Source: Christiangramia sp. OXR-203
GTDB lineage: Bacteria; Bacteroidota; Bacteroidia; Flavobacteriales; Flavobacteriaceae
Direction: 5' to 3'
Assembly: GCF_034372165.1 (NCBI RefSeq)
Contig: NZ_CP139698.1
Coordinates: 1,612,001 to 1,676,000 of the forward strand
Length of the DNA stretch: 64,000 bases
Shown here one piece after another: positions 9,994 through 62,520 of this stretch; position 1 is the stretch's first letter, and each line of letters opens with the position of its first letter. Both the position numbers and the translations under genes were made by a program. The notes under the pieces were generated by a model, which saw nothing but the letters and a program-made list of their open reading frames with translations, ran no database searches and was not told the origin of the DNA.

Positions 9994-9999
9994 AAACTT

Positions 10000-10566: not shown

Positions 10567-10569
10567 TCT

Positions 10570-11499: not shown

Positions 11500-11504
11500 G
11501 ATTT

Positions 11505-11900
11505 ATGGATCTAGAGACTAAAGATATTGTAACCAAATTTTATGAATCCAACTTCTATAAAGATGAAGAAGTGTTGAAATCCTATCTTCATCCAGATGTT
11601 GAATTACGCTGGTACGGTACTACAGGATTCAGAAAATTAAATTTGGATGGTATTTCTGAGATAACGAAAGAGATTTCAGAATCATACGAATCATTGCGGG
11701 CTGAGACTGAAAAGATCATCTCTAATGGGAATGAAGCTGCAATCCATTTTACCTATTTCGTTAGAACTATAGAAAACCCCGAAGAAGAAATGCCGCTAGC
11801 GCATTTTGTTGCTATGTGGGAGCTGAAAGATGGAAAACTATACAAGGGCACCCAAGTTAGTCAGCTAGGTGAAGAGATCGATGATGATCCCTGGTCATAA
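11505..11900 (+). CDS. NTF2/SnoaL-like protein
   Basis: A 131-residue protein with the cone-shaped SnoaL/NTF2 fold pattern. The motifs are FYESNFYKDEEVLKSYLHPD near the start, a central ELRWYGTTGFRKLNLDGI, and AHFVAMWELKDGKLYKGTQV near the end. Such proteins are small enzymes or binding proteins, and no specific reaction can be assigned. It is the last gene of the lipid A/efp operon, 5 bases after the LpxD-like gene and followed by a strong terminator. Confidence 0.75.
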   Translation: MDLETKDIVTKFYESNFYKDEEVLKSYLHPDVELRWYGTTGFRKLNLDGISEITKEISESYESLRAETEKIISNGNEAAIHFTYFVRTIENPEEEMPLAHFVAMWELKDGKLYKGTQVSQLGEEIDDDPWS

Positions 11901-11906
11901 AACTTT

Positions 11907-11936
11907 AAACCCTCTGATTTACAGAGGGTTTTTTTA
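11907..11936 (+). terminator. Rho-independent terminator of the lpx-efp operon
   Basis: CCCTCTG-ATTTA-CAGAGGG stem-loop followed by a run of seven T residues, directly after the NTF2-like gene. Confidence 0.9.
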
Positions 11937-11947
11937 TAATCAAACTC

Positions 11948-11989
11948 TTCTATGTTTGTAGAATCAAATAATTATTCTACATTTGTAGA
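11948..11989 (+). promoter_or_regulatory. Promoter with two BlaI-type operator palindromes
   Basis: Two inverted repeats precede the BlaI-like gene. The first, 11948-11963, has arms TTCTA and TAGAA. The second, 11976-11989, is TCTACATTTGTAGA, containing TACAnnTGTA as in BlaI/MecI operators. Both also contain a TAnnTTTG promoter box (TATGTTTG and TACATTTG), so repressor binding would cover the promoter. This suggests autorepression of the blaI-M56 pair. Confidence 0.7.
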
Positions 11990-12006
11990 GAATCAATATC
12001 TGTTTT

Positions 12007-12372
12007 ATGTTACTTTCTAATGCTGAAGAAGAATTAATGCAATTGCTCTGGAAGCAGGAGAATGCTTTTATGAAAGATCTTGTCGAAGCTTATCCCGATC
12101 CAAAACCTGCTACGACAACTATTGCAACTTTGCTTAGAAGAATGCAGGATAAAAATTTTGTTGCTTATGAGCAGATAGGCAGGTCCAGAGAATATTATCC
12201 AAAAGTGAGCAAGAAAGCTTATTTCTCTAAAAGAATGAATGGGATGATCAAGTCCTTTTTTGATAACTCCGCATCGCAGTTCGCGTCTTTCTTTACTGAA
12301 GAAACAGATCTTACGGATGATGAATTGAAAAAATTGAGAAAGCTGATTGATGATAAAATAAAAAAGGACTGA
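12007..12372 (+). CDS. BlaI/MecI/CopY-family transcriptional repressor
   Basis: A 121-residue winged-helix repressor. The DNA-binding part (SNAEEELMQLLWKQENAFMK, then KPATTTIATLLRRMQDKNFV) fits the family, and a C-terminal helical part serves dimerisation. In the family, a membrane M56 sensor protease triggers cleavage of the repressor. The partner M56 gene starts 1 base after this stop and the operator palindromes lie just upstream, so the pair is probably autoregulated. What it senses is unknown; no beta-lactamase gene is adjacent. Confidence 0.88.
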   Translation: MLLSNAEEELMQLLWKQENAFMKDLVEAYPDPKPATTTIATLLRRMQDKNFVAYEQIGRSREYYPKVSKKAYFSKRMNGMIKSFFDNSASQFASFFTEETDLTDDELKKLRKLIDDKIKKD

Positions 12373-12373
12373 G

Positions 12374-46752: not shown

Positions 46753-46754
46753 CG

Positions 46755-46800
46755 TGATGGCACCAGGATTCGAACCTGGGACCGCCTGCTTAGAAGGCAG
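46755..46800 (-). repeat. tRNA-Arg(UCU) 3' fragment, island attachment site
   Basis: Read on the minus strand, the sequence runs from the anticodon stem and loop (CTGC-CTTCTAA-GCAG, anticodon TCT) through variable loop CGGTC, T arm CCAGG-TTCGAAT-CCTGG, acceptor strand TGCCATC and discriminator A. The 5' half with D arm is absent: identity to a tRNA stops at 46800. The fragment is what remains when a tyrosine recombinase inserts an element in a tRNA, the intact gene being rebuilt at the other end. The integrase gene starts 160 bases away. Confidence 0.85.
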
Positions 46801-46959: not shown

Positions 46960-48216
46960 ATGGCAAGAGCGAGATTAGTTTTAGATACACGGGTGAAGTC
47001 AAAATATTCCAATGATGGTCTGTTTCCAATTACTATTAGAATTTTTCATAAAAAACCTCGAATGATCCGTCTTCCGTATAGTACTTCCAAATCTGGTTGG
47101 GATGATAAAAATATGTTGCTTAAGAAATCGGCTGTTGCAAATAAAGATGTTGAATGTGATAAAATTAACACCTTAATTTATAACAAACTGCATTTAGCAA
47201 AGTCTACAATTTACAATTTAGGAGATACAATCAATATCATTTCTGTTGATACCTTAGTAGAAAACATTAAAAAGTGTTGGGATGAACAACTGGATTCTAA
47301 AGTAAAACGAAACTTATCTAATGAAATTACCTTGGATAATTGGGGTCAGATTTTAATCGATCGTAAATTAAAGGCTAATAAACCAGCTACAGCAAAATGG
47401 TATAAAGACTCCATCACCGCTTTTACACAATTTAATGAAGGTAAATCGGTGAAGCTATATCAAATTACAGTTACATTTTTGAAAAATTTTGAAATGGAGC
47501 ATATTTCCAGAGGAAATTCGAAAAACGGCATAAGTTCTTACATAAGAGCTATCCGGGCAATTTATAACAGCGCTTTAAGAGAAGAAAAGTATAATAATTT
47601 AAAAAATCCTTTTTTAAATTATAAAATTCCATCAACTGGAAGGACAAAAAAGAAAGCTCTCTCAAAAGAAAAAATTGTGGCTATTAGAAATTTAAAATAT
47701 GAAAAATTTTCCAATCTCTGGCATACAAAGAACTACTTCTTATGTATGTTTAATTGTAGAGGAATGAACCTTATTGATTTAGCAAAGTTAAGAGTTAAAG
47801 ATATAAGGAATAATAGAATTTTTTATGGTCGAAGTAAGACGGGAGATCCTTTATCTGTAAAGGTGACCATAGAATTTGCCAAAATTTTAGAATTTTATAT
47901 TCAGGATAAAGATAAAGACGATTTTATTTTTCCTATCGGATATGATGGTTCCGTTAGCACTTTTAAAAAATATAGATCTGATAGAAGGTTAGTAAATAAA
48001 TTGCTTAAAAAGATTGCTGAAGATGCAGGTATTGATGAAAAGATCACCTCATATTATATTCGGCATTCCTGGGCAACCATAGCTAAAAATATGGGTATTT
48101 CGACTGAAATAATAAGTGAAGGTTTAGGTCATCATTCATTAAAAACTACAGAAATCTATCTCAAAAGTTTTGATAATACAGTTCTGGATGATGCAAATGA
48201 TTTAATAGTAGCTTAA
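46960..48216 (+). CDS. Tyrosine recombinase (island integrase)
   Basis: A 418-residue phage-type integrase. An N-terminal arm-binding domain (RLPYSTSKSGWDDKNM) and a SAM-like core-binding domain (residues about 115-215) precede the catalytic domain. The latter has R267 in NCRGMNLIDLAKLRVKD, R368 in SYYIRHSWATIAKNMG, H391 in GLGHHSLKTTEIYL, and nucleophile Y400. It probably excises and inserts the island at tRNA-Arg(UCU). Its location directly beside the truncated tRNA is standard. Confidence 0.93.
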   Translation: MARARLVLDTRVKSKYSNDGLFPITIRIFHKKPRMIRLPYSTSKSGWDDKNMLLKKSAVANKDVECDKINTLIYNKLHLAKSTIYNLGDTINIISVDTLVENIKKCWDEQLDSKVKRNLSNEITLDNWGQILIDRKLKANKPATAKWYKDSITAFTQFNEGKSVKLYQITVTFLKNFEMEHISRGNSKNGISSYIRAIRAIYNSALREEKYNNLKNPFLNYKIPSTGRTKKKALSKEKIVAIRNLKYEKFSNLWHTKNYFLCMFNCRGMNLIDLAKLRVKDIRNNRIFYGRSKTGDPLSVKVTIEFAKILEFYIQDKDKDDFIFPIGYDGSVSTFKKYRSDRRLVNKLLKKIAEDAGIDEKITSYYIRHSWATIAKNMGISTEIISEGLGHHSLKTTEIYLKSFDNTVLDDANDLIVA

Positions 48217-48541
48217 TATATAGCTCTAATTTTCAATAAATTTGTTTTAATAGCCTTTTAGTATATTTCTATTCCAGATTAAATAGCAAGATTACCTTTT
48301 TAAAATTTCTGGTATCACCATATCATTTTTTTATTTAAATTTATAAATTCCAATTACTTACGAAGCTCTTTATAATTGCTTGGTAAATTTTTTTTGTGGT
48401 CGTGATAAAATCTATTTTCACCCAAAGGATAGATTTGTAGTGTTTTGACGAATAGGCCGTTATTTATAAATAGTCTGTTAATTCGCCTTCCTTCATTTTT
48501 GTTATAGATTAATTTAGTGCTTTGATTTTCAATTGGGTGCC
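48217..48541. other. Regulatory gap before the peptide exporter
   Basis: A 325-base AT-rich gap with no coding capacity I can support. It holds a palindrome AATTTATAAATT at 48338-48349, the TAGATTTG promoter-like box at 48430-48437, and the palindromic element at 48458-48481 shared with the precursor peptide gene. Confidence 0.5.
48458..48481 (+). promoter_or_regulatory. Shared palindromic element, copy A (exporter)
   Basis: Contains TATTTATAAATA, a perfect 12-base palindrome, flanked by CGT and followed by GTTAA. It matches copy B upstream of the peptide gene at 19 of 24 positions. In both copies the next conserved block, ATTTAGT, begins exactly 54 bases after the element's first base (48512 and 53795). 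A binding site for the AraC-type regulator in this locus is the simplest reading. Confidence 0.55.
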
Positions 48542-50719
48542 ATGTTTGGAGCAGTGAATTTTCCGGCTTACCGTCAGCTTGATCAAATGGATTGTGGGCC
48601 TACCTGCCTAAAAATCATTACAGAATTTTACGGTAGACATTTCAATATAGATTTTTTACGTGAAATCTCATCCCAACAAAAAGGAGGAGTATCCTTTCAG
48701 GGTCTTTCACAAGCAATGGAAAGAATTGGATTAGATTCTGTTGGCATTAAAGCTAACTTAAAGGAACTGATTGAAGATATTCCACTTCCTGCAATTGCTC
48801 ACTGGGAACAGAATCATTTTTTGGTGATATATAAAACTGATAAACGAAATGTTTTTGTTTCCGACCCGGCCATAGGAAAAATAAAATATTCTCATAATGA
48901 ATTTCAGGTGCGATGGTCAGGTAAGAATGAAAATGAGGGCGTATTACTCCTTGTCCAACCTAAAGAGGATTTTCTGGATAACGATAATGAAGAAGCTAAG
49001 CCGGAAGGAATAGGATTTTTACTCGAATATCTTAGTCCGTATAAAAAATATATAGGACAAATCACCTTGGGTTTATTCACTGCGATGTTAATTCAGTTAA
49101 TCCTTCCTTTTCTAACTCAAAGCATTGTGGATTACGGGATCAATTATGAGAATCTTGATTTTATATACCTGATCGTTATAGCACAACTTTTTTTATTTCT
49201 AACTCGTTCCGTCACAGAGGTGATTCGGGATTGGCTCTTACTGCACATCAGCACCAAAGTTACCATAGCTATGGTATCAGATTTTCTGGATAAACTTTTG
49301 AAGCTTCCAATTACTTTTTTTGACTCAAAAACCACCGGCGATTTTATGCAGAGGATTTACGATCATCAAAGAGTAGAGGAATTCCTGAGCGGCCAATCCC
49401 TGAGTATATTTTTTGACCTGCTTAGCATAATAGTTTTTGCTTTTGTTTTAGGAATTTTTGATAGTACGATACTTCTAATTTTCTTGATTGGAACTTCTTT
49501 GTTTTTAGGGTGGTCTCTTTTATTTATGAAAAAGAAAGAGGTTCTGGATCACCAGCAATTTGATTTGCATAGAAAGGAGCAATCCCATTTACTTCAAATC
49601 ATTATGGCGGTGATGGAAATCAAACTTAACAATTCTGAAGAAAGAAGAAAATCAGAGTGGGAGATGAATCAGTCCAGGCTTTTTGGATTGCAATCAACTA
49701 TCCTGAAGGTTGATCATAGTCAAATTAAGGGCGGTAAATTTATTAATGAAATTATGGGCATCCTGATTGTTTTTTGGTCAGCAAAGGCAGTTATATCAGG
49801 GGAAATATCCTTAGGTACCATGTTGGCAATCCAATTCATTGTAGGAAGTCTTTACATACCAATTTCTAATACTATCGATTTCCTAGTGGGCTATCAAAAA
49901 GCAAAACTTTCTTTAAAAAGATTGGCTGAAATTCACAATCAAAAATCTGAAGTATATCAGAATGAAAGCGTTGGTTTAGAGTTGAGAGGCGATATAAAAC
50001 TCGAAAATATCTCGTTTAATTATGGGGAACAAGGATCAAACGCTGTTATCAAGAATGTTTCTACAATTTTTCCACACGGAAAAGTTACTGCCATTGTGGG
50101 AGCTAGTGGATCTGGTAAGACAAGCCTTCTGAAAATATTATTGAGATTATATAAACCTTGTGAAGGCAGGATAAGTATTGGAAACGAAAATTTCGAACAT
50201 GTTGAAGTAAACAACTGGAGAAGGATGTGTGGGGTGGTTTTACAGGATGGAATTTTGTTCAATGATACCTTCGAAAGAAATATCACAGAATCAAAATCTG
50301 ATGAACCATTAAACCAAAAGCGATTAATAGAATCGGTCGAAATGGCCAATTTGACCGATTTAATTAGTTCACTCCCTCTTGGGTATCAGACCAGGATTGG
50401 TGAACAAGGACAGCTATTAAGCGGGGGAGAGAAACAAAGACTTTTAATTGCAAGGGCGATATACAAAGATCCTAAATATTTATTTTTTGATGAAGCTACA
50501 AGCTCCTTAGATGCTGAAAACGAAAAAGTAATAACAGAAAATCTGAATCATTTTTACCGGGATAAAACAGTAATTATCGTAGCCCATAGGCTATCCACAG
50601 TAAAAAATGCAGATCAAATATTGGTAATGAATAAAGGAAATATCGTGGAACAGGGGAATCACCAAGAGTTACTATCTCAGAAAGGTGTTTACTATACATT
50701 AATTAGAAATCAACTTTAA
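48542..50719 (+). CDS. C39-peptidase ABC exporter of a double-glycine peptide
   Basis: A 725-residue protein of the bacteriocin-processing exporter class. Residues 1-140 are a C39 cysteine peptidase with oxyanion Gln 12, Cys 18 (QMDCGPTC), His 92 (EQNHFLVI) and Asp 108 (SDPAIG). Membrane helices follow from about 165 to 450. The ATPase has GASGSGKTS near 517, LLSGGEKQRLLIARA and LFFDEATSSLDAE. ATG 48542 is preferred to TTG 48533. It cleaves after Gly-Gly and exports the core; the likely substrate is the 42-residue peptide at 53836. Confidence 0.92.
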   Translation: MFGAVNFPAYRQLDQMDCGPTCLKIITEFYGRHFNIDFLREISSQQKGGVSFQGLSQAMERIGLDSVGIKANLKELIEDIPLPAIAHWEQNHFLVIYKTDKRNVFVSDPAIGKIKYSHNEFQVRWSGKNENEGVLLLVQPKEDFLDNDNEEAKPEGIGFLLEYLSPYKKYIGQITLGLFTAMLIQLILPFLTQSIVDYGINYENLDFIYLIVIAQLFLFLTRSVTEVIRDWLLLHISTKVTIAMVSDFLDKLLKLPITFFDSKTTGDFMQRIYDHQRVEEFLSGQSLSIFFDLLSIIVFAFVLGIFDSTILLIFLIGTSLFLGWSLLFMKKKEVLDHQQFDLHRKEQSHLLQIIMAVMEIKLNNSEERRKSEWEMNQSRLFGLQSTILKVDHSQIKGGKFINEIMGILIVFWSAKAVISGEISLGTMLAIQFIVGSLYIPISNTIDFLVGYQKAKLSLKRLAEIHNQKSEVYQNESVGLELRGDIKLENISFNYGEQGSNAVIKNVSTIFPHGKVTAIVGASGSGKTSLLKILLRLYKPCEGRISIGNENFEHVEVNNWRRMCGVVLQDGILFNDTFERNITESKSDEPLNQKRLIESVEMANLTDLISSLPLGYQTRIGEQGQLLSGGEKQRLLIARAIYKDPKYLFFDEATSSLDAENEKVITENLNHFYRDKTVIIVAHRLSTVKNADQILVMNKGNIVEQGNHQELLSQKGVYYTLIRNQL

Positions 50720-50808
50720 ATTTAACCATTATCGAAAAATACAAAAAATACAAAAATGATAATATTCTTCAGCGTGAACCCGGTTGGATATTACGGAATG
50801 GCACTAAG

Positions 50809-52020
50809 TTGACATTTGTTTTCTTTGTATTATTACTAATTTCCGCTTCCAATTTTCCATTTAATGAAGTTATTCAAGGAAAGGTAATTGTCACCTCTCA
50901 AAATCCACCCGTACATATAAAAGCAAAATCTGTAGGTAAAATTTTAGCGATTAACTACCAACCTGGAGATTTAGTTTTTAAAGGGGATATTTTAGGAGAA
51001 CTAGAAAATGATTCATACACAAAAGATGTTGTAAATCTACGAGCTAAGTTAGATACCGTTTTCAATATTCAAACCCTCAAAGATTTAAATGAGATTTACC
51101 CTCCACATTTAATTTTAGGCAACGACCTTCAATTATATTACAATGCTTTTTTGAGCAATTATCATCATTTGATACTTGAAGCGTCCCTGAATGATCAATC
51201 TATTCATGATCATCAAATGAGGCAGGAATTATCAAATCAGCTTTATTCCATTGATAGTAAAAATGAAGAATTATCTATCGCTAAAAGAAATCTTGAAGTC
51301 TCGGAAACCAATTATAAGAGGTTCCAAGAATTATTTAATAAGGGGGTGGTTTCTCAGGTTGATCTTGAAAATATAGAAAAAGATTTCTTAATGCAGCAGC
51401 GCCAATTTCATTTTTTAAATCAACAGTATAATCAGTTAATATTAGAAAATAAAGGTATACTATCTAGGCTTCAACTTTCAAGTAATACGTCTTTAAAAAC
51501 TAAGCGTAATCTAGAGGTTGATCTACTATTATCTCAACAGAATTTAATCGGTGCTATCCAAAAATGGGAAGATACCTACCTTTTGAAAAGCCCCATTGAT
51601 GGCCGATTATCTTATTTTGAAGTTTGGGGAGAATATCAGAATGTAGAAGAAGGAGAATCAGTATATAGTGTTGTTCCCGATATTCAGCAGAATCTGATAG
51701 GGAAATGCATAATCCCCATTCGGAATGCAGGGAAGTTGAAAAAAGGGCAGAAGGTAAATTTAAAACTAGATAACTATCCTTATCATGAATGGGGAATGGT
51801 AAGAGCCAAGGTAGGATCGATTTCACAAATACCCAAAGGAGGAGACAATCCTGGTTACATTGTTTACTTAACTATCAATGACCTGAAAACCTCTTACGGT
51901 AAAGAATTAGAGTTTCATCAGGAATTAAATGGAACAGCAGAAATTTTACTGAAGGAGGTTACACTGATAGAACGGATTTTTTATCAGTTCCGTCATTTAT
52001 GGTCAAATAGAGAATTTTAA
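50809..52020 (+). CDS. HlyD-family membrane fusion adaptor
   Basis: A protein of about 403 residues with a membrane segment at the very start (FVFFVLLLISASNFP), a split biotinyl-lipoyl domain (VHIKAKSVGKILAINYQPGDLV and LKSPIDGRLSYFEVWGEYQNV), a long coiled coil (about 120-235) and beta-barrel. It links the C39 exporter to an outer-membrane channel. The frame stays open upstream to about 50722 and encodes a cytoplasmic tail like IIEKYKKYKNDNILQREPGW, typical of the family. The true start may therefore be a rare ATT or ATC codon at 50728-50731. Confidence 0.85.
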   Translation: MTFVFFVLLLISASNFPFNEVIQGKVIVTSQNPPVHIKAKSVGKILAINYQPGDLVFKGDILGELENDSYTKDVVNLRAKLDTVFNIQTLKDLNEIYPPHLILGNDLQLYYNAFLSNYHHLILEASLNDQSIHDHQMRQELSNQLYSIDSKNEELSIAKRNLEVSETNYKRFQELFNKGVVSQVDLENIEKDFLMQQRQFHFLNQQYNQLILENKGILSRLQLSSNTSLKTKRNLEVDLLLSQQNLIGAIQKWEDTYLLKSPIDGRLSYFEVWGEYQNVEEGESVYSVVPDIQQNLIGKCIIPIRNAGKLKKGQKVNLKLDNYPYHEWGMVRAKVGSISQIPKGGDNPGYIVYLTINDLKTSYGKELEFHQELNGTAEILLKEVTLIERIFYQFRHLWSNREF

Positions 52021-52030
52021 ATGATTGAAC

Positions 52031-53734
52031 ATGATTTTTTCATCTGTAATAAATCTTTCCCTGTACCGCTTACTGTTATTCGTGGCTTTGACCATATTTA
52101 TTTATAAGCCATTATTATTTGCCCAGGATAATATAAAACAGAGCACTACTATTTATTCAGTTAATTCATCTTTTACAGAATTGCATGAACTTGAGGCAGC
52201 CGCTATGGCAGATTCTAAAATTGACGAACTAAATAAGATTGTAGAAGTCCATTTGCAGAAGGCTAAAAAAGAGAATGATCCTGTTGAACTAGCCAGAGCT
52301 TATTACTACAGAATATTGACGGAGAAGCCTGAACGCGCAATTATTTATTCAGATTCCATGATCGAGATTACTGAAAACAGCGAACATCCAAACTACCCGA
52401 CTCTTGGCTATATTCTCAAAGCAAATGTGCTTTATGATCAGGGTAAATTTCAACCTGCATTAGATAATTTTTTAAAAGCCTATAATCTGGCTTTGGAAAA
52501 GAATAATATGGATGATCAGCGTGAAATTTCCCTTGCCATTGCTGCCATAAGGAATATTAACGGGCAACATTACGCCGCCGCCGATTTATATAAGCGATCC
52601 CTTAATCTTTTAAAACAGAAATCAAATTCAACTGAAAATTATTACGAGGATTATTCAACTCTGTTATATAACCTCTCACTTACCTACCTGAGATTGTCAC
52701 AATTGGATACCTCAAAATATTACGTTCAGAAGGGAATTGATTTGTCAAGATTAGAGAACAAAGAAGAAGATTTTAAAGATTTTGTTTTGGTGGATGCTCA
52801 GATAAATTTTTATAAAAAGGATTTTAAAAGGGCCAAGGATACACTTCTAAAATATATTGACGATTTTGACGGTACCAGTAAGGCGATCAAGCTTTATTAT
52901 TTGGGAAAAATTGAAAAAAATTATGGAAATGATAAGGTCGCGCTTACATATTTTAAAACCATAGATTCCATCGTCTCCTCAACAGAGGATCCTTTTAACG
53001 AAGTAAAGGATGTTTATCAGCAATTAATAATCAATTCGGTTTTAGAAGACGAAGAAAAGGAACAAATTGGCTATATAGAAAAACTAATATATTATGATAG
53101 TGTTTTGTCCTCAGAGCATGAAAATATTGCAAATCAGGCAATAGTTGCTTATGATATCCCGGATCTGAAAAGACAAAAACTTAAAGCTGAAAATCAACTC
53201 AAAACAAAAAATTTATATGTGACATTGATTGCTATTCTGGCTGGTCTGGCTGTTCTTATTGGCTTATATTTTTTTATACGCTCCAGAAAAATGAATGCAA
53301 GGTTAAAACTTCTTATGGAAGAATCGGAAATGGAAGAGGGAAAATCTAAGGCCATTACAGAGCATCCTTCTTCCATTCCGGAGGAAATTAGAAAGGATAT
53401 TTTAGAAAAACTGGCTGTATTTGAAAAATCAGATCGCTTTATGAGCAAAGATTTGGATATGTATGGCCTGGCCCAACAAATAGGTACCAATACTACCTAT
53501 TTGTCCACTGTAATCAATCATTACAAAAAGATGAATTTTCCAACCTACGTCAAGGATTTGAAAATTAAAGCGGCAATAAATCAACTGAGTAAGAATCCTG
53601 ATTTATTGAAATATAATTATCAAGGTTTAGCGGAAATTTTTGGTTTCAAAACAGGGGAATCATTTTCGAAAGCCTTTTACAAGAAAACTGGGGTATATCC
53701 ATCTAAATTTTTAAATGAATTAAAATCACGCTAA
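52031..53734 (+). CDS. Membrane-anchored TPR protein with AraC-type DNA-binding domain
   Basis: A 567-residue regulator. A signal or membrane segment at the start (about 5-28) leads to tetratricopeptide-like helices (YILKANVLYDQGKFQPALDN, LLYNLSLTYLRLSQLDTSKY) outside the membrane. A membrane helix lies at about 396-416, and the C-terminal 100 residues are an AraC-type double HTH (MYGLAQQIGTNTTYLSTVIN, AEIFGFKTGESFSKAFYKKT). It fits a one-component peptide sensor that spans the membrane. TTG at 52025 is a slightly longer option. It lies between the exporter and the peptide gene. Confidence 0.82.
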   Translation: MIFSSVINLSLYRLLLFVALTIFIYKPLLFAQDNIKQSTTIYSVNSSFTELHELEAAAMADSKIDELNKIVEVHLQKAKKENDPVELARAYYYRILTEKPERAIIYSDSMIEITENSEHPNYPTLGYILKANVLYDQGKFQPALDNFLKAYNLALEKNNMDDQREISLAIAAIRNINGQHYAAADLYKRSLNLLKQKSNSTENYYEDYSTLLYNLSLTYLRLSQLDTSKYYVQKGIDLSRLENKEEDFKDFVLVDAQINFYKKDFKRAKDTLLKYIDDFDGTSKAIKLYYLGKIEKNYGNDKVALTYFKTIDSIVSSTEDPFNEVKDVYQQLIINSVLEDEEKEQIGYIEKLIYYDSVLSSEHENIANQAIVAYDIPDLKRQKLKAENQLKTKNLYVTLIAILAGLAVLIGLYFFIRSRKMNARLKLLMEESEMEEGKSKAITEHPSSIPEEIRKDILEKLAVFEKSDRFMSKDLDMYGLAQQIGTNTTYLSTVINHYKKMNFPTYVKDLKIKAAINQLSKNPDLLKYNYQGLAEIFGFKTGESFSKAFYKKTGVYPSKFLNELKSR

Positions 53735-53740
53735 ACAACA

Positions 53741-53764
53741 CGTCATTTATAAATGGAGGGTTAA
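53741..53764 (+). promoter_or_regulatory. Shared palindromic element, copy B (precursor peptide)
   Basis: Contains CATTTATAAATG, a perfect palindrome, with CGT before it and GTTAA after it, as in copy A. ATTTAGT begins 54 bases after its first base (53795), identical to copy A. It lies 71 bases before the peptide's ATG. Confidence 0.55.
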
Positions 53765-53835
53765 CCTTTTTGCAGCCTGTACCCAAATGTGATTATTTAG
53801 TACTGAAATTTATTAATCCATTAAATATTCTAATT

Positions 53836-53964
53836 ATGAAAAAAGAACTAAAAGATTTTAAAGGAAGAGCCCTTAAAAATTTACACCAAATTAAAGGTGG
53901 GGGAGAAGATGGTCCAATTGACAGGGATAAGATCAAAACTCCGAAAGTTGGAAAACGAGATTGA
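53836..53964 (+). CDS. Double-glycine precursor peptide (secreted peptide)
   Basis: A 42-codon gene for a peptide with leader MKKELKDFKGRALKNLHQIK ending in GG, then the predicted core GEDGPIDRDKIKTPKVGKRD. The leader has the Leu/Ile positions and double-glycine end recognised by C39 peptidases. The core is 20 residues, very polar, with no Cys, so lanthionine or disulphide rings are excluded. It has two prolines and lies between the regulator and the exported prolyl-peptidase gene. A longer frame from 53770 is rejected because it begins upstream of the leader. It may be a signal or a toxin. Confidence 0.8.
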   Translation: MKKELKDFKGRALKNLHQIKGGGEDGPIDRDKIKTPKVGKRD

Positions 53965-53980
53965 AATTAAATCCGTAAAA

Positions 53981-54014
53981 AAATTCCCGGATCAAAATCC
54001 TGATTCGGGAATTT
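53981..54014 (+). other. Strong stem-loop between peptide and peptidase genes
   Basis: AAATTCCCGGATCA and TGATTCGGGAATTT arms (one G·T pair) around a six-base loop, a 14-base-pair stem. No T run follows on the plus strand, so it is more likely an mRNA stabiliser or attenuator for the small peptide message than a classical terminator. On the minus strand a T run follows, a possible terminator in that direction. Confidence 0.6.
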
Positions 54015-54027
54015 CAAAAAATGAAAA

Positions 54028-56196
54028 ATGAAAAAATATATCAAATATTTTCTATTCTATTCTTTGTGTTTTTTCCTTTCGGTTTCTTTTGCCCAGGAAG
54101 GAAAGAGCAATCATTTGGTTTATCCCCAAATCCTCAAAAAACCAACTTCCGAAATACATTATGGAATAAAAGTCTTAGACGAGTATTCAAATTTAAATAA
54201 GCTAGAAGATAGTTCGGTGAAAAATTGGTTCAAAGCTCAGGATTCTCTGGCTGAAAAGTATTTTGCTACAAATGACTTAATGAAAGAATATTTAGAGAAA
54301 TTTAAAAAATACCAAAATAATGCTCAATCCTCCTTGAGTATGGTTCGTATTAGTGAAAATGGAAATTATTTTTACTTAAAATATGATGATAGTTTGGGAT
54401 ATGAAAAATTGTTTTTTAGGGAGAATCTTGCTGATAAAGAAAAAGAATTATTCGATCCTTCCCAGTATAATTCTGGTAATCCGTCAATAACTTATCTAAA
54501 CCCCTCATTTGACGGAAAAAAGATCGCAATTGGTTTTAATGACAATGGTAGTTTTTCAAGTACAATCTTAATTTATGATCTTGAAACGAATCAGATTTTA
54601 AGAGAAGTGATTACAAATATCAATCCCGATTTTGGGGGAATAGAATGGTTGCCGGATAATTCAGGATTTATCTATTTATTTTTTCCGGAAGTAGATAATT
54701 CCCAACCGGGTTATAAGAAGAACTCTTTTTCTGTTATTTATAAATTAGGTGAAAACCCCGAAGATAGAAAACCAATTTTCCAGTCTCATTATGACTTACA
54801 TATTTCTGAAGATTTTTATCCTAAAGTAAAAATAGGATCGAGCCTGGATAATTATATCATTGGTTATATAGCCAGTTCTGATGATTATTATGACAGCTAT
54901 ATAGCTACCATTTCAGATGTCCTACAAGGAAAACCAGATTGGAAACCATTCTTCAAAAAAGAAGATGCGATATTCTACGATCAGGGAGAGGTTCGTGGTG
55001 ATAAATTTATTTTCCGCCAAGGAAATTTAAACGGGAATCTATTGGGGAAAGTAAGTATCGAAAATCCTGATTTCACTAATCCGGCTGTTTTGGCAGAAGG
55101 CAGTAAAGAGAATCCTATTATTAAATTTGAAGTAACAAAGGATAATATTTATTTCGCACGGTCCTTATATGGAGCAAATGTTTCTTTATATGTTCTCAAC
55201 TCTTCAAATAAGATCAGACAATTACAACCTCCTTTTGATCCCGGTTATGCTACCTTTTTTGGGGAGTCTGTAAAACACAATAATGTTGGGGTGGGTATGG
55301 ATGGTTGGACTTCTGATTATACCCGCTATTTAATAAATGAAGATGGAAGTTTCTCAAGAGAAGCACTTTCACCTCTATTGGCTTATCCAGAGTTTGAAAA
55401 TATTATAACGGAACAAATAATGGTTACCTCCCATGATGGGGTAGAAGTTCCTTTATCGCTGGTTTATAAGGAAGGTCTGGAAAAAAAATCAGCAAATGAA
55501 GTATTTATGTATGTATATGGTGCATACGGGGAAAGTTTGAGTCCATTTTTCTCTCCTATGTTTTTAGATTGGGCAGCCCAGGGTGGAATTTTGGCATTCC
55601 CTCATGTTAGGGGAGGCGGAGAAAAAGGGAAGGAATGGCACAAGCAGGGAATGAAGAATCTTAAATTTAATTCCTGGAAAGATCTTATTGCCTGTACCGA
55701 AGCTCTAATAAATTTGAATTTTACGGAACCAGGATTAATTTCACTTTATACCAGCAGTGCAGGAGGGATTACAGCCGGAATGGCTGTAAACGAACGTCCG
55801 GATCTTTTTTCTTCCTTTATAGCTGATGTTCCGCGACTAAATCCTTTTGGTCTGGAATCATCCAGCACGGCCAGCAGTACGAGTTACCTTGAGTATGGAA
55901 CGGTCAAAGACAGTACAGAATTTTCGGGTCTTGTAAAAATGGATCCATACTTAAACATACGGTCTAAAATGGCTTATCCGGCAGTTCTTGTAATGCCGAG
56001 CTATAACGATGACCGTATTCCATTATGGGATAGTGGCAAATATATAGCTAAACTGCAAAATAGTAATCAGACAAATAATCCTGTTTTATTGGATATCGAC
56101 TATCAAAACGGGCATGAAACAGCAGGTGATTATGATGAATCTGTCCGTCTATACAGTAAAATTTTCAGTTTCGCCAAATCCAATATGAAGCGTTAG
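54028..56196 (+). CDS. Exported prolyl-oligopeptidase-like S9 peptidase
   Basis: A 722-residue protein with a signal peptide (FLFYSLCFFLSVSFAQ), a propeller of S9A type (residues about 100-460) and an alpha/beta-hydrolase domain. Catalytic Ser 577 is in YTSSAGGITAGM, Asp 661/662 in SYNDDRIPLWDSG and His 696 in YQNGHETAGD; GGSNGG is usual at the Ser, so TSSAGG is a variation. The family cuts after Pro in short peptides. Being encoded next to a proline-containing exported peptide, it may process or inactivate that peptide. Confidence 0.85.
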   Translation: MKKYIKYFLFYSLCFFLSVSFAQEGKSNHLVYPQILKKPTSEIHYGIKVLDEYSNLNKLEDSSVKNWFKAQDSLAEKYFATNDLMKEYLEKFKKYQNNAQSSLSMVRISENGNYFYLKYDDSLGYEKLFFRENLADKEKELFDPSQYNSGNPSITYLNPSFDGKKIAIGFNDNGSFSSTILIYDLETNQILREVITNINPDFGGIEWLPDNSGFIYLFFPEVDNSQPGYKKNSFSVIYKLGENPEDRKPIFQSHYDLHISEDFYPKVKIGSSLDNYIIGYIASSDDYYDSYIATISDVLQGKPDWKPFFKKEDAIFYDQGEVRGDKFIFRQGNLNGNLLGKVSIENPDFTNPAVLAEGSKENPIIKFEVTKDNIYFARSLYGANVSLYVLNSSNKIRQLQPPFDPGYATFFGESVKHNNVGVGMDGWTSDYTRYLINEDGSFSREALSPLLAYPEFENIITEQIMVTSHDGVEVPLSLVYKEGLEKKSANEVFMYVYGAYGESLSPFFSPMFLDWAAQGGILAFPHVRGGGEKGKEWHKQGMKNLKFNSWKDLIACTEALINLNFTEPGLISLYTSSAGGITAGMAVNERPDLFSSFIADVPRLNPFGLESSSTASSTSYLEYGTVKDSTEFSGLVKMDPYLNIRSKMAYPAVLVMPSYNDDRIPLWDSGKYIAKLQNSNQTNNPVLLDIDYQNGHETAGDYDESVRLYSKIFSFAKSNMKR

Positions 56197-56259
56197 TTAT
56201 TTCATCCAGATTAATCAGAGTTTTCCTGTTTTTATTCCGATTGTTTATGAATGCAGCCC

Positions 56260-56274
56260 ATTCATTTATAAAAG
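56260..56274 (+). promoter_or_regulatory. Weaker palindrome copy C upstream of rteC
   Basis: TTCATTTATAAAAG retains the core but loses one arm. Its position, 87 bases before the gene start, and an ATTTA element 55 bases downstream, mirror copies A and B. Chance matching in AT-rich DNA is possible. Confidence 0.35.
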
Positions 56275-56346
56275 CAGATATCTAATATTATTTAAAGTGC
56301 AGGAATTACAGGATATTTAAGGTAGTATTTCTTAAATATCAATCTA

Positions 56347-57168
56347 ATGGATTTTCTGATTACCGAGGATGAGCTTAAAAATGAGATTCAGGAAATTGAG
56401 CAAACTTTCCTAAATAAGAATGCTGCATACTTTGAAATAATTAACTACTGCCGTAAAGTATTAGAAACCTACCGAAAAGAGATTTATTTAAATGGCTTCC
56501 CGGATACTCCTTCAGAAATTCAGTTTTTTAAAAAACAGAAAACGATTCCTTTAACATATCAGATTTATTACGAAAACTTGCTATCCATCGAATTGGAAAT
56601 TTCATCTATAGACGAATCCTCACAGTCGAAATTTATATCTAAAAAGATTCAAAAGATAAATAGTTTTCTTACTGGGCATAAAAATTTCCTTCGGTATATC
56701 GCCCTGGATCAGGAATACATGGATGAGATCTATTTCACCCGAAAATATTTTCATAAAGATCATATTGTTAATTATAGTCATTATGAAAGAGATCCCTTAT
56801 TCAGCTGCTCCCACGATTTACTTTTGAGTGAATTGAATGCCCGTAATTTCTTGCTCAAATATCTAAATAATAAATTTCGGGTTAAAGAATCTGCTTCCAT
56901 AGCTTATGAAGAACCTATAAAAATTAACTGGACTTCTTCTAAGGTGGCTCTAACCGAACTGATCTATGCCCTGCAGGTTAGTGGGAGCATAAATAATGGA
57001 AATACTACGCTGAAAGAACTGGTGGATATATTTGAGACATTAACAGGCTTAGATCTGGGAGACTACCATCATACTTTTTTAAGACTCAGGAGCCGCTCTG
57101 AACCTTTAAAATTTATCGATAAAATGAGAAATTCCATGCTTGAATATATGGAAGAGCTTGATGCGTGA
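56347..57168 (+). CDS. RteC-family protein
   Basis: A 273-residue protein matching the RteC family. RteC is known from the CTnDOT-type conjugative transposons, where it relays regulation to excision genes. Here the C-terminal half (INWTSSKVALTELIYALQVS and GNTTLKELVDIFETLTGLDLG) carries the recognisable region, winged-helix-like. It lies between the peptide locus and the excisionase-like HTH gene, a position consistent with control of mobility. Whether it acts on excision here is inference. Confidence 0.82.
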   Translation: MDFLITEDELKNEIQEIEQTFLNKNAAYFEIINYCRKVLETYRKEIYLNGFPDTPSEIQFFKKQKTIPLTYQIYYENLLSIELEISSIDESSQSKFISKKIQKINSFLTGHKNFLRYIALDQEYMDEIYFTRKYFHKDHIVNYSHYERDPLFSCSHDLLLSELNARNFLLKYLNNKFRVKESASIAYEEPIKINWTSSKVALTELIYALQVSGSINNGNTTLKELVDIFETLTGLDLGDYHHTFLRLRSRSEPLKFIDKMRNSMLEYMEELDA

Positions 57169-57419: not shown

Positions 57420-57695
57420 ATGCCAACGTCAATTATTACTACAGATGATTTAAGGGAGTTCAAAATAGAGCTCCTTGAAGAAATTCAGAAACTACTAGAA
57501 AAAGAATCCGGTAATATTTCTAAAAAATGGCTGAAATCCACCGAAGTCATGGAGATGCTAAAGATTAGTTCCGGAACTCTAAATGGTTTTAGAACAAAGG
57601 GGATACTACCATATAGTAAGATAGGAGGACTCATTTACTACGATTCAGCTATTATTCAAAAAATATTGACAGATAATCTAATCCAAAATGAATAA
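57420..57695 (+). CDS. Excisionase-like helix-turn-helix protein
   Basis: A 91-residue protein with a MerR-like or HTH_17 domain (residues about 38-85, KWLKSTEVMEMLKISSGTLN and then RTKGILPYSKIGGLIYY). The N-terminus is a short acidic helical region. Proteins of this type in Bacteroidota mobile elements act as excisionase or regulator. It begins 18 bases after the inverted repeat of the gap and is followed after 3 bases by the next gene. Confidence 0.8.
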   Translation: MPTSIITTDDLREFKIELLEEIQKLLEKESGNISKKWLKSTEVMEMLKISSGTLNGFRTKGILPYSKIGGLIYYDSAIIQKILTDNLIQNE

Positions 57696-57698
57696 GCC

Positions 57699-58346
57699 AT
57701 GAATTACATAAAACATTTAAACGCGGTGTTCAAGAGATTTTCTAAGGACTCTAGTCTGAATGCCACTCATATTAGTGTATATATGGCATTATTTCAATCC
57801 TGGAATATCCACCGTTTTAAAGAACTATTCTATATCCATAGGGATGAAATTATGGAAATGGCTAAAATTGGCTCCAATCCAACTTACCATAGATGCCTGA
57901 GAAAATTACACGATCAAAAATATATTCAATATCTGCCTTCCCATAATCCATATAAAGGGAGTAGGGTTAGGATGTTCATTTTCGATGCAAGCTCTAAACA
58001 AGTAGTGGGCAAGCATGAAACAAGTTCAGAACAAGTATTAACTCCTTCAATAAACTTAAATAAACAAAATAAAAACCTTAATAAACTTGAGCTCCCCCAA
58101 AGTGAAAATGAAGTATTAATTTTTTTTAAAAATAAAAATTGGCCGGAATTAGAAGGACGAAAATTTTACAATCACTACACTTCAATTGGCTGGTCGGTAA
58201 GAGGAAATATTAAAATCACTAATTGGCATGCAACTGCTGAGAGCTGGATGTTGAAAGCAAACGATTTTAGAAGTCAGTCATCAGTATTTCAAAATAGAGA
58301 CAACCTTAAAACAACTAAATATAAAAATTATGGCGAACCCCTCTAG
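57699..58346 (+). CDS. Replication-initiator-like winged-helix protein
   Basis: A 215-residue protein. The N-terminal 100 residues (HLNAVFKRFSKDSSLNATHI and MAKIGSNPTYHRCLRKLHDQ) read as a winged helix of a type seen in mobile-element replication or regulatory proteins. A linker rich in Asn/Lys and a conserved NHYTSIGWSV, ITNWHATAESWM patch follow. It overlaps the downstream ATPase by 17 bases, as initiator and loader genes do. I do not recognise a named family with confidence. Confidence 0.6.
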   Translation: MNYIKHLNAVFKRFSKDSSLNATHISVYMALFQSWNIHRFKELFYIHRDEIMEMAKIGSNPTYHRCLRKLHDQKYIQYLPSHNPYKGSRVRMFIFDASSKQVVGKHETSSEQVLTPSINLNKQNKNLNKLELPQSENEVLIFFKNKNWPELEGRKFYNHYTSIGWSVRGNIKITNWHATAESWMLKANDFRSQSSVFQNRDNLKTTKYKNYGEPL

Positions 58347-58986
58347 CATTATAGAAGATGGAATTGAATATTCTCTTGGCAAATATGATGGAAAGAGAAT
58401 AATTTATGATTTCCCAAAAATCCTAATTTTTCTTGAAGCCAAAGGTAAAATTCTTTTTGGCCAGCATTTTAAAATATTTGAAGAGGATAAAGATATTCTG
58501 TTTAAGCTTTCCAACTACTTTATTAAAGACCATATAAATTGTGAAAAGTTGCGGATTGATCCGGATAAAGGAATTTTGCTTTCCGGTCCCGTGGGATGTG
58601 GTAAAACGAGCCTGATGAAGCTCATGCGGTATTTGGTGCCCCATCAAAGGAGCTACGTGGTTATGCCATGTAGAAATATTGTTTTTGCTTTTAATCACCT
58701 GGGATATAAAACTATTGAAGATTATGGAGATGAAGGTTTTTTCTGCTTTGATGATATGGGCATAGAGCCAATAGGAAGACATTATGGTAGGGATTGTAAT
58801 GTGATAGGGGAAATTCTGATATCTCGTTATGAACTTTTTCTTCAAACAAATTTAAAAACCCATGGCACCACAAATTTAAGTGCCATGGAAATTGAAGATA
58901 TGTATGGCTCAAGAGTCAGAAGCCGAATGAAAAAGTTATTCAACCTTATTGATTTTGACTATAATACAAACGATAAACGAAAATGA
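58330..58986 (+). CDS. DnaC/IstB-type AAA ATPase
   Basis: A 218-residue ATPase with Walker A GPVGCGKTS (about residues 91-99), Walker B CFDDMGIEP (about 138-146), and sensor-like TNLSAMEIEDMYGSRVRSRM at the end. Helicase loaders and transposition helpers share this form. The overlap with the initiator-like gene suggests a replication module. The ATG at 58330 is inside the preceding gene's last codons. No IstA transposase is near it. Confidence 0.8.
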   Translation: MANPSSIIEDGIEYSLGKYDGKRIIYDFPKILIFLEAKGKILFGQHFKIFEEDKDILFKLSNYFIKDHINCEKLRIDPDKGILLSGPVGCGKTSLMKLMRYLVPHQRSYVVMPCRNIVFAFNHLGYKTIEDYGDEGFFCFDDMGIEPIGRHYGRDCNVIGEILISRYELFLQTNLKTHGTTNLSAMEIEDMYGSRVRSRMKKLFNLIDFDYNTNDKRK

Positions 58987-60376: not shown

Positions 60377-60646
60377 ATGACCCGATCTTCAATTGCCACA
60401 GAAATGCGTAAGCTAGTCGATAACTATTATGAATCAGGACAAAGCCGATCCTCTTTTGCCCGTAATCACGGAATTAGCAAAGGAAAACTCTGTTATTGGA
60501 TCCAGAAATTTCCCAAGGAGCAAGTTATAAAGCCCGCAAAAAGTAATTTTGTTTCCTTGTCGGCCGACCCTTCTACCACCCCAACATCCTCCAGGAGTAT
60601 GCATATCCGTTTAGGTAATGGCGTAGAAATTGAAATTTCCCTGTAA
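60377..60646 (+). CDS. tnpA: IS66 accessory protein TnpA
   Basis: An 89-residue protein with an N-terminal helix-turn-helix of the transposase accessory type (GQSRSSFARNHGISKGKLCY) and a conserved C-terminal MHIRLGNGVEIEI. IS66 elements need TnpA and TnpB with TnpC for transposition. Its stop shares one base with the tnpB start. Confidence 0.9.
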   Translation: MTRSSIATEMRKLVDNYYESGQSRSSFARNHGISKGKLCYWIQKFPKEQVIKPAKSNFVSLSADPSTTPTSSRSMHIRLGNGVEIEISL

Positions 60647-60999
60647 TGTTTGCCTTAAGTAGTTCCCTGAATTACCAGCTATATCTTCCTGGTACTGATA
60701 TGCGTAAGAGTTTCGATGGATTATGTGGGCTGGTCCTTAGAGAATTAGGCCATAGTCCCCAGGATGGTTCAGTCTATATCTTTATCAATAAAGCTCGCAA
60801 TAAAGTCAAGTTACTGCATTGGCAGTCCGGGGGCTTTGTGTTGTACTACAAGCGCCTGGAGCGTGGCACCTTTGAGTTGCCAAAATACGATGCATCCGTG
60901 GGAGGGTTACAGCTGGATTACACCCAACTGGTGATGCTTATCGACGGGGTGGCCATCACCAATATTACCCGAAGAAAGCGCTATAAAAAAGCCGGATAA
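60646..60999 (+). CDS. tnpB: IS66 accessory protein TnpB
   Basis: A 117-residue protein with the complete IS66 Orf2 signature: YLPGTDMRKSFDGLCGLV at the start, VYIFINKARNKVKLLHWQSG centrally and FVLYYKRLERGTFELP. It is coupled to tnpA by a one-base overlap and precedes tnpC by 42 bases. Confidence 0.93.
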   Translation: MFALSSSLNYQLYLPGTDMRKSFDGLCGLVLRELGHSPQDGSVYIFINKARNKVKLLHWQSGGFVLYYKRLERGTFELPKYDASVGGLQLDYTQLVMLIDGVAITNITRRKRYKKAG

Positions 61000-61041
61000 A
61001 TGCTGGCATATCTCTAACAAGGGTAGTATTTTAGCTGCCCG

Positions 61042-62520
61042 ATGACCTATCAGGAGCTACAAAAAGAAAACCAGCAACTTCGCCAGTCCAATGAAACCTT
61101 CAAGGAGAAGATCTCCGCTTTGGAGGTACAACTCGGACAGCTCTACAAGCTGATCCAGGGCTTTAAATCGGAACGTTTTATTCCTGAAATACTTCAGCAG
61201 CAGCTATCGCTTTTTTCTGAAAATTCAGATAAAACCGGGCAAGTAGTCACTCCTAAAGAAACGATCAGCTATACCCGGGAAAAAAAGAAGCACCCGGGCC
61301 GTAATACCTTGCCGGAACACCTTCCGGTACGGGAAGTCATTCTTGAACCAGAGGAAGATGTAAGCACGCTAAAAAAAATAGGTGAGGAAGTTAGTGAAAC
61401 CCTGGAGTATACCCCGGCCAGTCTGGTTAAAAGACGTACCATACGTCCTAAATATGCCAGGAAAAATGAGCAAGGGGTAGTCATTGCGCCACTGCCCACA
61501 CGTCCTATCGAAAAATCTATTGCCGAAGCCTGTTTATTGGCTTATATCCTGGTGAGCAAGTATATTGACCATTTGCCATTCTATCGTCAGATCCAGCGTT
61601 TTAAACGGGAGTTTGGCTGGGAACCTGCCTCCAGTACTTTAAGTGACTGGATGGCGGGTTGTTGCCAGCTCCTGGAGCCCCTCTATAATACCCTGAAACA
61701 AAAAATCCTCACAGACGGTTACATCCAGGCTGATGAAAGTCCGATTAAGGTGCTGGATAGTGATAAAAAAGGCAGCACACATCAAGGCTACCAATGGGTC
61801 TATCACGACCCCTTGCAAAAACTGGTGCTCTTTAATTACCGTAGGGGACGTAGGCAACATGGTCCCAGGGAATTCCTTGACGGGTATAAGGGATACGTCC
61901 AATGTGATGGGTACAGCGTGTATGATAAAATCGGTGTAGATCCGGATATTACTATGGCCGGTTGTCTTGTGCATGCCCGAAGAAAATTTGTAGATACTCG
62001 GGATCAGGATAAAGAAAGAGCGGATAAAGCATTAGCCATATTTAGTGAAATTTATAGGCAGGAACGAGCGATCAAAGAAGAAGCAGCTGGTGATGCGGAT
62101 ATGCGAAAAGAACTAAGATTACAAAAGGTGTTGCCACTATTGCAACAGATCAAAACCTGGGTCCAGGAAGAACAGTTTAAGGTGTTGCCAAAAAGTGCTA
62201 TCGGAAAAGCCATGACCTACTTTTTAAATCAATACCCCAAGTTCGAGGTGATCTTTGAGGATGGCAGGATCGAACTGGACAACAACCTTATTGAGAATGC
62301 CATTCGTCCGCTGGCCCTTGGCCGAAAAAATTTCCTGTTCGCAGGTTCCCACAGGGCTGCACAAGATGCGGCCATGTTATATTCTTTCTTTGGTAGTTGT
62401 AAAATGCAAGGTATTAATCCCCAAGAGTGGTTAGAGGATACCTTACGAAGGATACCCGATCATAACATCCAAAAGCTGGAAGAGTTATTGCCGGGGTACC
62501 ACCGTACAGACAAACCATAA
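61042..62520 (+). CDS. tnpC: IS66 transposase TnpC
   Basis: A 492-residue transposase. An N-terminal coiled coil (QLRQSNETFKEKISALEVQL) and helix-turn-helix/zinc region precede the DDE catalytic domain with D231 (IQADESPIKVLDSD), D291 (QCDGYSVYDKIG) and E418 (NLIENAIRPLALGRKN). The C-terminal IS66 tail (CKMQGINPQEWLEDTLRRI) is intact. No frameshift is seen, so the element may be active. Confidence 0.95.
   Translation: MTYQELQKENQQLRQSNETFKEKISALEVQLGQLYKLIQGFKSERFIPEILQQQLSLFSENSDKTGQVVTPKETISYTREKKKHPGRNTLPEHLPVREVILEPEEDVSTLKKIGEEVSETLEYTPASLVKRRTIRPKYARKNEQGVVIAPLPTRPIEKSIAEACLLAYILVSKYIDHLPFYRQIQRFKREFGWEPASSTLSDWMAGCCQLLEPLYNTLKQKILTDGYIQADESPIKVLDSDKKGSTHQGYQWVYHDPLQKLVLFNYRRGRRQHGPREFLDGYKGYVQCDGYSVYDKIGVDPDITMAGCLVHARRKFVDTRDQDKERADKALAIFSEIYRQERAIKEEAAGDADMRKELRLQKVLPLLQQIKTWVQEEQFKVLPKSAIGKAMTYFLNQYPKFEVIFEDGRIELDNNLIENAIRPLALGRKNFLFAGSHRAAQDAAMLYSFFGSCKMQGINPQEWLEDTLRRIPDHNIQKLEELLPGYHRTDKP

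Follow-up and report, generated by a model that had tools for sequence, protein, structure and literature searches.

Gram-positive bacteria are known to control conjugation by peptide quorum sensing, as parts of PMC6540685 describe. The closest described systems are RapI-PhrI of ICEBs1 and Rap-Phr of pLS20, both of Bacillus. In these, according to sections of PMC6540685 and PMC8055654, a secreted peptide borne by the element acts with a receptor built of tetratricopeptide repeats (TPR) to control the excision or transfer of that element; the Rap receptors are cytoplasmic, receive re-imported peptides of 5-10 residues and act on other proteins. In pCF10 of Enterococcus, by the same sections of PMC6540685, linear peptides (cCF10/iCF10) control a conjugative element via the DNA-binding receptor PrgX. 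In the open-access literature searched, we found no described peptide signal for the transfer of an element in Bacteroidota. Here we describe a locus in a stretch of 64,000 nucleotides from Christiangramia sp. OXR-203, a member of the Flavobacteriaceae (contig NZ_CP139698.1, positions 1,612,001 to 1,676,000; hereafter the window). We think that this locus is probably a self-contained peptide-signalling circuit of a conjugative-type element, in which a receptor would sense an exported peptide and switch the peptide gene, its exporter and the regulatory gene rteC.

The genes of the locus lie in the order integrase, C39-peptidase ABC exporter, HlyD-type adaptor, TPR/AraC regulator, double-glycine (GG) peptide, S9 peptidase, RteC, HTH_17 protein, a protein of unknown function and DnaC-like loader (Table 1). 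An earlier sequence-only reading of the window had named a peptide-export locus, and Pfam domains and open reading frames (ORFs) placed its five genes and the 42-residue GG peptide where it had put them. It gave the unit as 48458-56196; the genes do lie within this span, but the unit runs on into rteC at 56347. At its first coordinate, 48458, a conserved operator-like palindrome begins. This 18-bp palindrome (consensus CGTCATTTATAAATGACG), hereafter the box, was traced from a direct repeat with one copy each at 48458 and 53741. The exporter operon, the peptide(-S9) operon and rteC each have a palindrome centred on TTTATAAA and a -7-like element 34 bp downstream of it.

In 397 genomes of the family, exporter homologues were found at E<=1e-120 in 88, and among the 40 exporter loci fetched, five had regulator and S9 homologues of the module type beside the exporter, with the peptide in each of the five. 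The profile of the S9 peptidase, which matched 42 genomes at E<=1e-150, added G110 and G321, and also G217 and G353, which have no exporter within about 7-8 kb. The 30 S9 loci fetched comprised 10 modules, 4 loci with a distant regulator beside S9 (L104, L106, L109 and L114) and 16 loci with S9 alone. With the loci from a scan for the peptide core, of which two of 13 were the same as G322 and G110, 21 module loci were laid out (window included). The regulator, peptide and S9 genes stand together throughout, in four arrangements: exporter-HlyD-regulator-peptide-S9-rteC (15/21), regulator-peptide-S9-exporter-HlyD (3/21), exporter on the opposite strand (1/21) and no adjacent exporter (2/21). That is, the exporter adjoins in 19 loci, and rteC is near in 19. 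Among the findings that would speak against it, the sequence-only reading had named an intact exporter with the peptide gene missing or frameshifted. No such case came up: the peptide is present in each of the 19 loci where the exporter adjoins. Eleven of them had been located by way of the peptide, and 8 (the window, G373, G225, G257, G144, G322, G110 and G321) via exporter or S9. Split frames were seen in two otherwise complete modules (the L168 regulator and the L172 S9), and these may be sequencing error or decay.

The core scan used back-translated GPID[RS]DK plus two degenerate codons, exact, against 84,980 genomes, and gave 22 matches. Thirteen of them were in Flavobacteriaceae (Arenibacter, Christiangramia/Gramella, Gillisia, Yeosuana and Confluentibacter), and all 13 were short GG peptides with regulator and S9 homologues in the fetched locus. 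The remaining nine had no short GG peptide and neither the regulator nor S9 as a neighbour. The consistent context of the 13 matches indicates that the 42-residue ORF is not a chance one. A looser core pattern, tried on 395 class-level genomes, was found in 7 genomes, that of the window among them, against 9 matches in the backward control, and was taken as chance.

In an alignment of 16 peptides, the GG is kept in 16/16 and is followed by a core of the form G-P-I-D-R-D-K-I-K/R and then by a variable, mostly basic tail. K32 and the two Gly residues of GG do not vary in the alignment, and I19, P27, I28, D29 and D31 are nearly invariant. The predicted cores have 16-24 residues and none contains Cys, in agreement with the short, Cys-free core noted earlier. 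Over the 120 pairs of these peptides, with gaps counted as differences, the mean identity was 42% in the leader and 72% in the motif G26-K34; where the leaders were less than 40% identical (69 pairs), the values were 26% and 67%. The codons of nine homologous peptide genes (36 pairs, not independent) gave proportions of synonymous (pS) and nonsynonymous (pN) differences of 0.75 and 0.04 for the motif, and of 0.68 and 0.18 for the leader. By this comparison, purifying selection on the motif GPIDRDKIK is strong. That the core is conserved and the leader varies more freely, the reverse of what diversifying bacteriocins show, fits a ligand with a fixed receptor. The motif GPIDRDK was absent from the open-access literature searched.

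The box stands 91-102 bp before the peptide ATG, with 0-3 mismatches to the consensus, in 19 of the 21 loci. When scored with a matrix trained on other genera, it was the best site of the 12-20-kb locus in 17 loci, was tied in L050, and was second to the exporter's own box in L169. The exporter box has 3-5 mismatches in 10 of the 14 exporter-first loci with upstream sequence (L170 is cut). In the 3.4-Mb genome, the exact half-box CGTYATTTATAAAT occurs twice, once before the exporter operon and once before the peptide operon; allowing one mismatch adds 6 sites, and the backward control has 5. An unselected box search in 324 genomes gave 54 sites with up to two mismatches, in 47 genomes, against 33 backward-control sites, which means that sites at this threshold are mostly noise. 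Three of the four sites with at most one mismatch lie in modules, and among the 30 sites with fetched DNA, five adjoin a regulator homologue, four of these being modules.

The -7-like element resembles TANNTTTG, which we take to be the Bacteroidota -7 consensus. Its score peaks at offset 34 from the box for the peptide (n=16, 3.94 of 6), the exporter (n=11, 4.36) and rteC (n=16, 3.94), and no other of the 30 offsets exceeded 3.3, the other 29 offsets being the control and loci within a genus not being independent. The spacers differ between genera. For rteC the downstream-most TTTATAAA-like core was used; the peptide set leaves out five of the 21 loci, that is, L073 and L180 (no good box) and L166, L167 and L172 (near copies). 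A box upstream of a promoter suits an activator.

In the 19 loci with rteC, two boxes stand upstream of this gene, 20-21 bp apart in 15 and 31 bp apart in L081 and L177, each with 1-8 mismatches in those 17 loci; in L052 and L174 the pair is seen by eye only. The presence of boxes before rteC also suggests that rteC is an output of the circuit. As a control, 29 of 30 fetched rteC loci were scored (L252 was out, its contig ending at the gene; more than 150 rteC matches were listed), and a locus counted as without the module when the fetched ~1.5 kb held no regulator or S9 match. The box pair was better than 95% of shuffles (p<0.05) in six of the seven loci with regulator or S9 nearby and in just one of the 22 others. 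Two or more copies of TTTATAAA were found in 5/7 against 0/22, and one or more in 7/7 against 4/22. In L262 (genome G212; 9327-14049), an integrase, a box, the regulator, tandem boxes and an rteC with a stop follow one another, with no peptide, exporter or S9; this is possibly a listener or a decaying element.

In six loci outside the module, a distant homologue of the regulator stands by a GG peptide whose core is unrelated: L104, L106 and L109, all three with S9, and L290, L062 and L064. They were picked on the adjacency of regulator and peptide, not on the box, with the exception of L290, which came from the box search. In all six, TTTATAAA stands 82-92 bp before the peptide ATG. Three of these boxes are perfect 18-bp palindromes, one is palindromic at 16/18 and two at 14/18, and they have other arms, e.g. 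TTAGA, TGATA and CTTCA. The -7-like score at offset 34 is 6, 6, 5, 5, 4 and 4 of 6; in L104 and L290 another TTTATAAA lies further upstream and has no -7-like element, and in L064 another offset scores higher. The L290/L294 locus (G288) has its regulator at L294:6373-8088 and a 73-residue GG peptide at L294:8204-8425; the 19 kb fetched contain no match to exporter, S9 or rteC. Because of the rteC control, the regulator-only L262 and these six loci, we conclude, as far as sequence can tell, that the boxes go with the TPR/AraC regulator and not with rteC in general.

L104, L106 and L109 suggest a wider class of regulator-peptide-S9 trios, and the palindrome arms may set specificity. We also looked for covariation of the recognition helix. 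The E of ESFSKAF is present in 12 of 13 aligned box-bearing regulators and lost in L073 and L180; this candidate was dropped, because L179 has the box without that E, and L062 and L064 have the E with other arms. As a separate observation, Cys-containing GG peptides stand beside regulator homologues in L062 (about 7026) and L064 (about 7115), with imperfect TTTATAAA-centred palindromes. A wider proposal, which taken as a whole we hold to be nearly evenly balanced and slightly on the doubtful side, is that the TPR/AraC proteins are a class of peptide-pheromone receptors of Flavobacteriaceae, each paired with a neighbouring GG peptide (often plus an S9) via its own palindrome; that these palindromes all keep the TTTATAAA centre, have arms specific to the regulator and are followed at exactly 34 bp by a -7 element; and that one branch has been captured by conjugative elements, where it would decide excision by neighbour density and where receptor-only elements (L262) may eavesdrop.

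The regulator has an architecture that such a receptor could have. Its structure model (mean predicted local distance difference test score, pLDDT, 87) has a TPR superhelix, an 89-residue helix holding a membrane segment, and a helix-turn-helix part; the signal peptide and the transmembrane helix were read by eye and from this model. The HTH_18 match is above the Pfam cutoff (3.1e-9), and the profile also matches AraC-family structures. The regulator thus modelled probably senses outside the cytoplasm and binds DNA inside, as the sequence-only reading had proposed. In Foldseek it matched peptide-binding TPR proteins, with the Rap complexes (Rap-CSF and Rap-Phr) at ranks 41, 44 and 45, below generic TPR proteins; such matches, being at the level of the fold, give no more than general support. 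The receptors of the RRNPP family (Rap/PlcR/PrgX) are cytoplasmic. Since the signal peptide and the transmembrane helix put the TPR part outside the cytoplasm, we do not file this regulator as RRNPP. TPR proteins of unclear role also occur near peptide precursors, according to a part of PMC8939145, a paper on graspetides.

The C39 domain of the exporter keeps the Cys motif DCGPTCL and is fused to the ABC membrane and ATPase domains. The rest of the genome gave no other exporter match spanning the C39 peptidase domain. We propose that the circuit works as follows, with the gene roles in the first step (export) and the last (RteC) taken from what is known of these families. The exporter would cut the precursor after Gly-Gly and export a hydrophilic core of ~20 residues, and the exported S9 peptidase would trim this core to the active form, or remove it and so set the threshold. 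The core or a fragment would then bind the TPR superhelix in the periplasm of the producing cell or of its neighbours, and the membrane regulator, probably as a dimer, would bind the palindrome and activate the exporter and peptide promoters, which makes an autoinducing loop. Above a threshold the regulator would also raise rteC through the tandem boxes, and RteC would switch the adjacent excisionase-like gene, so that excision and transfer would track the local density of carriers. A dedicated peptide with a sensing circuit had already been suggested from the sequence; the better conservation of the core motif than of the leader, the 21-locus linkage and the shared box fit that suggestion, but the boxes before rteC had not been foreseen.

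The S9 peptidase has the beta-propeller and hydrolase domains of prolyl oligopeptidases by Pfam (S9_N and S9), and its Ser/Asp/His triad is aligned in 20 of 20 sequences, one of them a fragment. The Trp of the S1 proline pocket is W595 in pig prolyl oligopeptidase. This Trp of the S9A enzymes, present in 2bkl, 7vgb and 3iuj, is not kept in the family, where S or N takes its place in 20/20 members. The specificity of the S9 peptidase therefore probably differs from that of prolyl oligopeptidase, and the label 'prolyl-type' in the sequence-only reading is doubtful because of this replacement. The enzyme may mature the signal or remove it. Firm processing after proline was considered, as most cores read P-IDRDKIKxP, and was given up: one of the two prolines is absent from L051, L052, L177 and L179, the S1 Trp is not kept, and related S9 genes adjoin peptides with unrelated cores. 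We keep such processing as a possibility.

Several observations weigh against the proposed circuit. In the window, both boxes upstream of rteC are degenerate, with 5 and 7 mismatches. The box of L180 is weak (6 mismatches), and L073 has none worth naming despite its regulator, peptide, S9 and exporter. Among the 14 exporter-first loci, four (L050, L051, L175 and L176) have an exporter site with 6-8 mismatches. Half-boxes counted with two mismatches allowed number 5 in the window against 3.1 expected by chance, which is no excess. No GG peptide was recognised in L114, which has a distant regulator and S9, and elsewhere the same type of regulator pairs with quite different, sometimes Cys-containing GG peptides that are not obviously signals. 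The rteC of L262 is interrupted by a stop, so that this element may be decaying. Furthermore, RteC is known as an excision activator from CTnDOT, not from these elements.

The rival that survives best keeps the circuit and reverses its sign. That is, the peptide would tell that the neighbourhood is already occupied and shut the regulator off, as PhrI does RapI. This is the known logic of ICEBs1 and pLS20 in the relevant parts of PMC6540685, and a regulator-only element exists (L262). However, the peptide and exporter promoters share an activator-like site, which is more natural for an autoinducing loop although not decisive, and we regard the reversed sign as unlikely. Still less likely, in our view, is a bacteriocin cargo, in which the core would be a small antibacterial peptide, S9 its immunity or processing enzyme, and the TPR/AraC protein a sensor of something else. 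Bacteriocin export usually employs a C39 exporter, HlyD and a GG leader, longer and often Cys-containing GG peptides occur in many of the other 35 exporter loci fetched, and distant regulator homologues stand beside such peptides in L062, L064 and L109. Against this, the cores of 16-24 residues, Cys-free in the 16 aligned, are well conserved across genera, boxes stand before rteC too, and no immunity gene was recognised in the module (S9 could serve as one), just as the sequence-only reading had said. The idea that the boxes are operators of RteC, which would drive the peptide module as cargo while the TPR/AraC protein acts elsewhere, finds some favour in CTnDOT RteC binding DNA upstream of excision genes and in L073 and L180, the sole modules without rteC nearby and also the sole ones without a good box, but is improbable, as tandem boxes precede only 1/22 rteC genes without regulator or S9 within 1.5 kb against 6/7 with one, those 22 being 32-40% identical to that of the window like most module-linked ones, and as regulator, palindrome and GG peptide occur together in L104, L106, L109 and L290, where no rteC was found across the 3-19 kb fetched.

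The proposed circuit would be carried by a mobile element. What the sequence-only reading called a mobile island can be narrowed by its attachment-site (att) repeats and conjugation genes: it is, by these features, a ~54-kb conjugative-type element inserted at a tRNA-Arg gene. Repeats of 47 bp bound it, ~54 kb apart, the far copy lying inside an intact tRNA-Arg(UCU) gene; no tRNA gene was found within the window itself. Between the repeats there are a TraG-like ATPase, TraM, a DUF4138 protein, a coupling protein and a DUF5712 protein, the last presumably the relaxase. Apart from the relaxase, the features of an integrative and conjugative element are present, namely an integrase, att repeats at a tRNA, the conjugation ATPase with TraM, and a coupling protein. 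The module is carried by 5 of 24 genomes of the genus, as expected for a mobile part. The nearest relatives of the locus are in Gramella sp. AN32 and a Christiangramia metagenome-assembled genome, with the regulator 98% and S9 and RteC 100% identical. Rfam gave no matches, and PADLOC nothing beyond generic ATPase and TPR matches. Three ORFs inside the element at window 60377-62520 resemble, we presume, an IS66-type insertion.

Table 1. Features of the locus and its surroundings, in window positions
Feature	Position	Strand	Remarks
Attachment-site copy, 47 bp	46754..46800	.	identical to G000:C1:1712666-1712712, part of tRNA-Arg(UCU) gene
Tyrosine recombinase (integrase)	46960..48216	+	Pfam Phage_integrase 5e-19
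Box before exporter operon	48458..48475	+	CGTTATTTATAAATAGTC, 5 mismatches to consensus; -7-like TAATTTAG 48510-48517, 34 bp after box
C39-peptidase ABC exporter	48542..50719	+	start ATG 48542 from comparison with relatives, TTG 48533 also open; ORF 48533-50719, Pfam Peptidase_C39 4.9e-34, ABC_membrane 7.5e-23, ABC_tran 5.5e-28
HlyD-type adaptor	50809..52020	+	HlyD_3 5e-11; several relatives longer at N-terminus
Membrane regulator	52031..53734	+	signal peptide, TPR superhelix, 89-residue helix with transmembrane segment, cytoplasmic AraC-type HTH_18 (modelled)
Box before peptide gene	53741..53758	+	CGTCATTTATAAATGGAG, 2 mismatches; -7-like TTATTTAG 53793-53800, 34 bp after box
42-residue GG peptide	53836..53964	+	leader 53836-53901; predicted core GEDGPIDRDKIKTPKVGKRD 53902-53961
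Exported S9 (prolyl-oligopeptidase family) peptidase	54028..56196	+	Pfam S9_N and S9, 1.7e-38
First box before rteC	56239..56256	+	degenerate, 7 mismatches
Second box before rteC	56260..56277	+	ATTCATTTATAAAAGCAG, 5 mismatches; -7-like GATATTTA 56312-56319, 34 bp after second box
RteC-family regulator	56347..57168	+	Pfam RteC 1.1e-54; excisionase-like HTH_17 gene next
HTH_17 / excisionase-like protein	57420..57695	+	next after rteC
Protein of unknown function	57699..58346	+	downstream part of element
DnaC-like helicase loader	58330..58986	+	PHROG 50, 4.5e-14

If the proposed circuit is true, a mobile element listens to neighbouring cells before moving. It would also give the TPR/AraC regulators a candidate ligand, a concrete operator rule and a short peptide to synthesise, and would allow a clean test of whether a conjugative element counts its neighbours.

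Parts of this design are found in several known systems. ComC/CSP and the bacteriocin inducers of Gram-positive bacteria likewise have a GG leader and a peptidase-containing ABC exporter; their sensor is a two-component system, whereas here the TPR and AraC parts are in one protein. CTnDOT of Bacteroides, with RteA/RteB-RteC, has an RteC-family gene beside an excisionase-like gene on an element of the TraG/TraM type, but its input is tetracycline via a two-component system, and here the input is probably the regulator encoded with the exported peptide. The pCF10 system differs from this locus in receptor family, location and export route, and a second, inhibitor peptide was not found here. PrgY of pCF10 lowers self-sensing, as a section of PMC6540685 describes, and this parallels one possible role of S9. 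Unlike Rap, the receptor here would be a single-pass membrane protein with an AraC domain, served by a C39/HlyD exporter in a Gram-negative host, with rteC as the probable target. Taken comprehensively, we think that the locus is best read as a Bacteroidota counterpart of the RapI-PhrI control of conjugation, built from unrelated parts.

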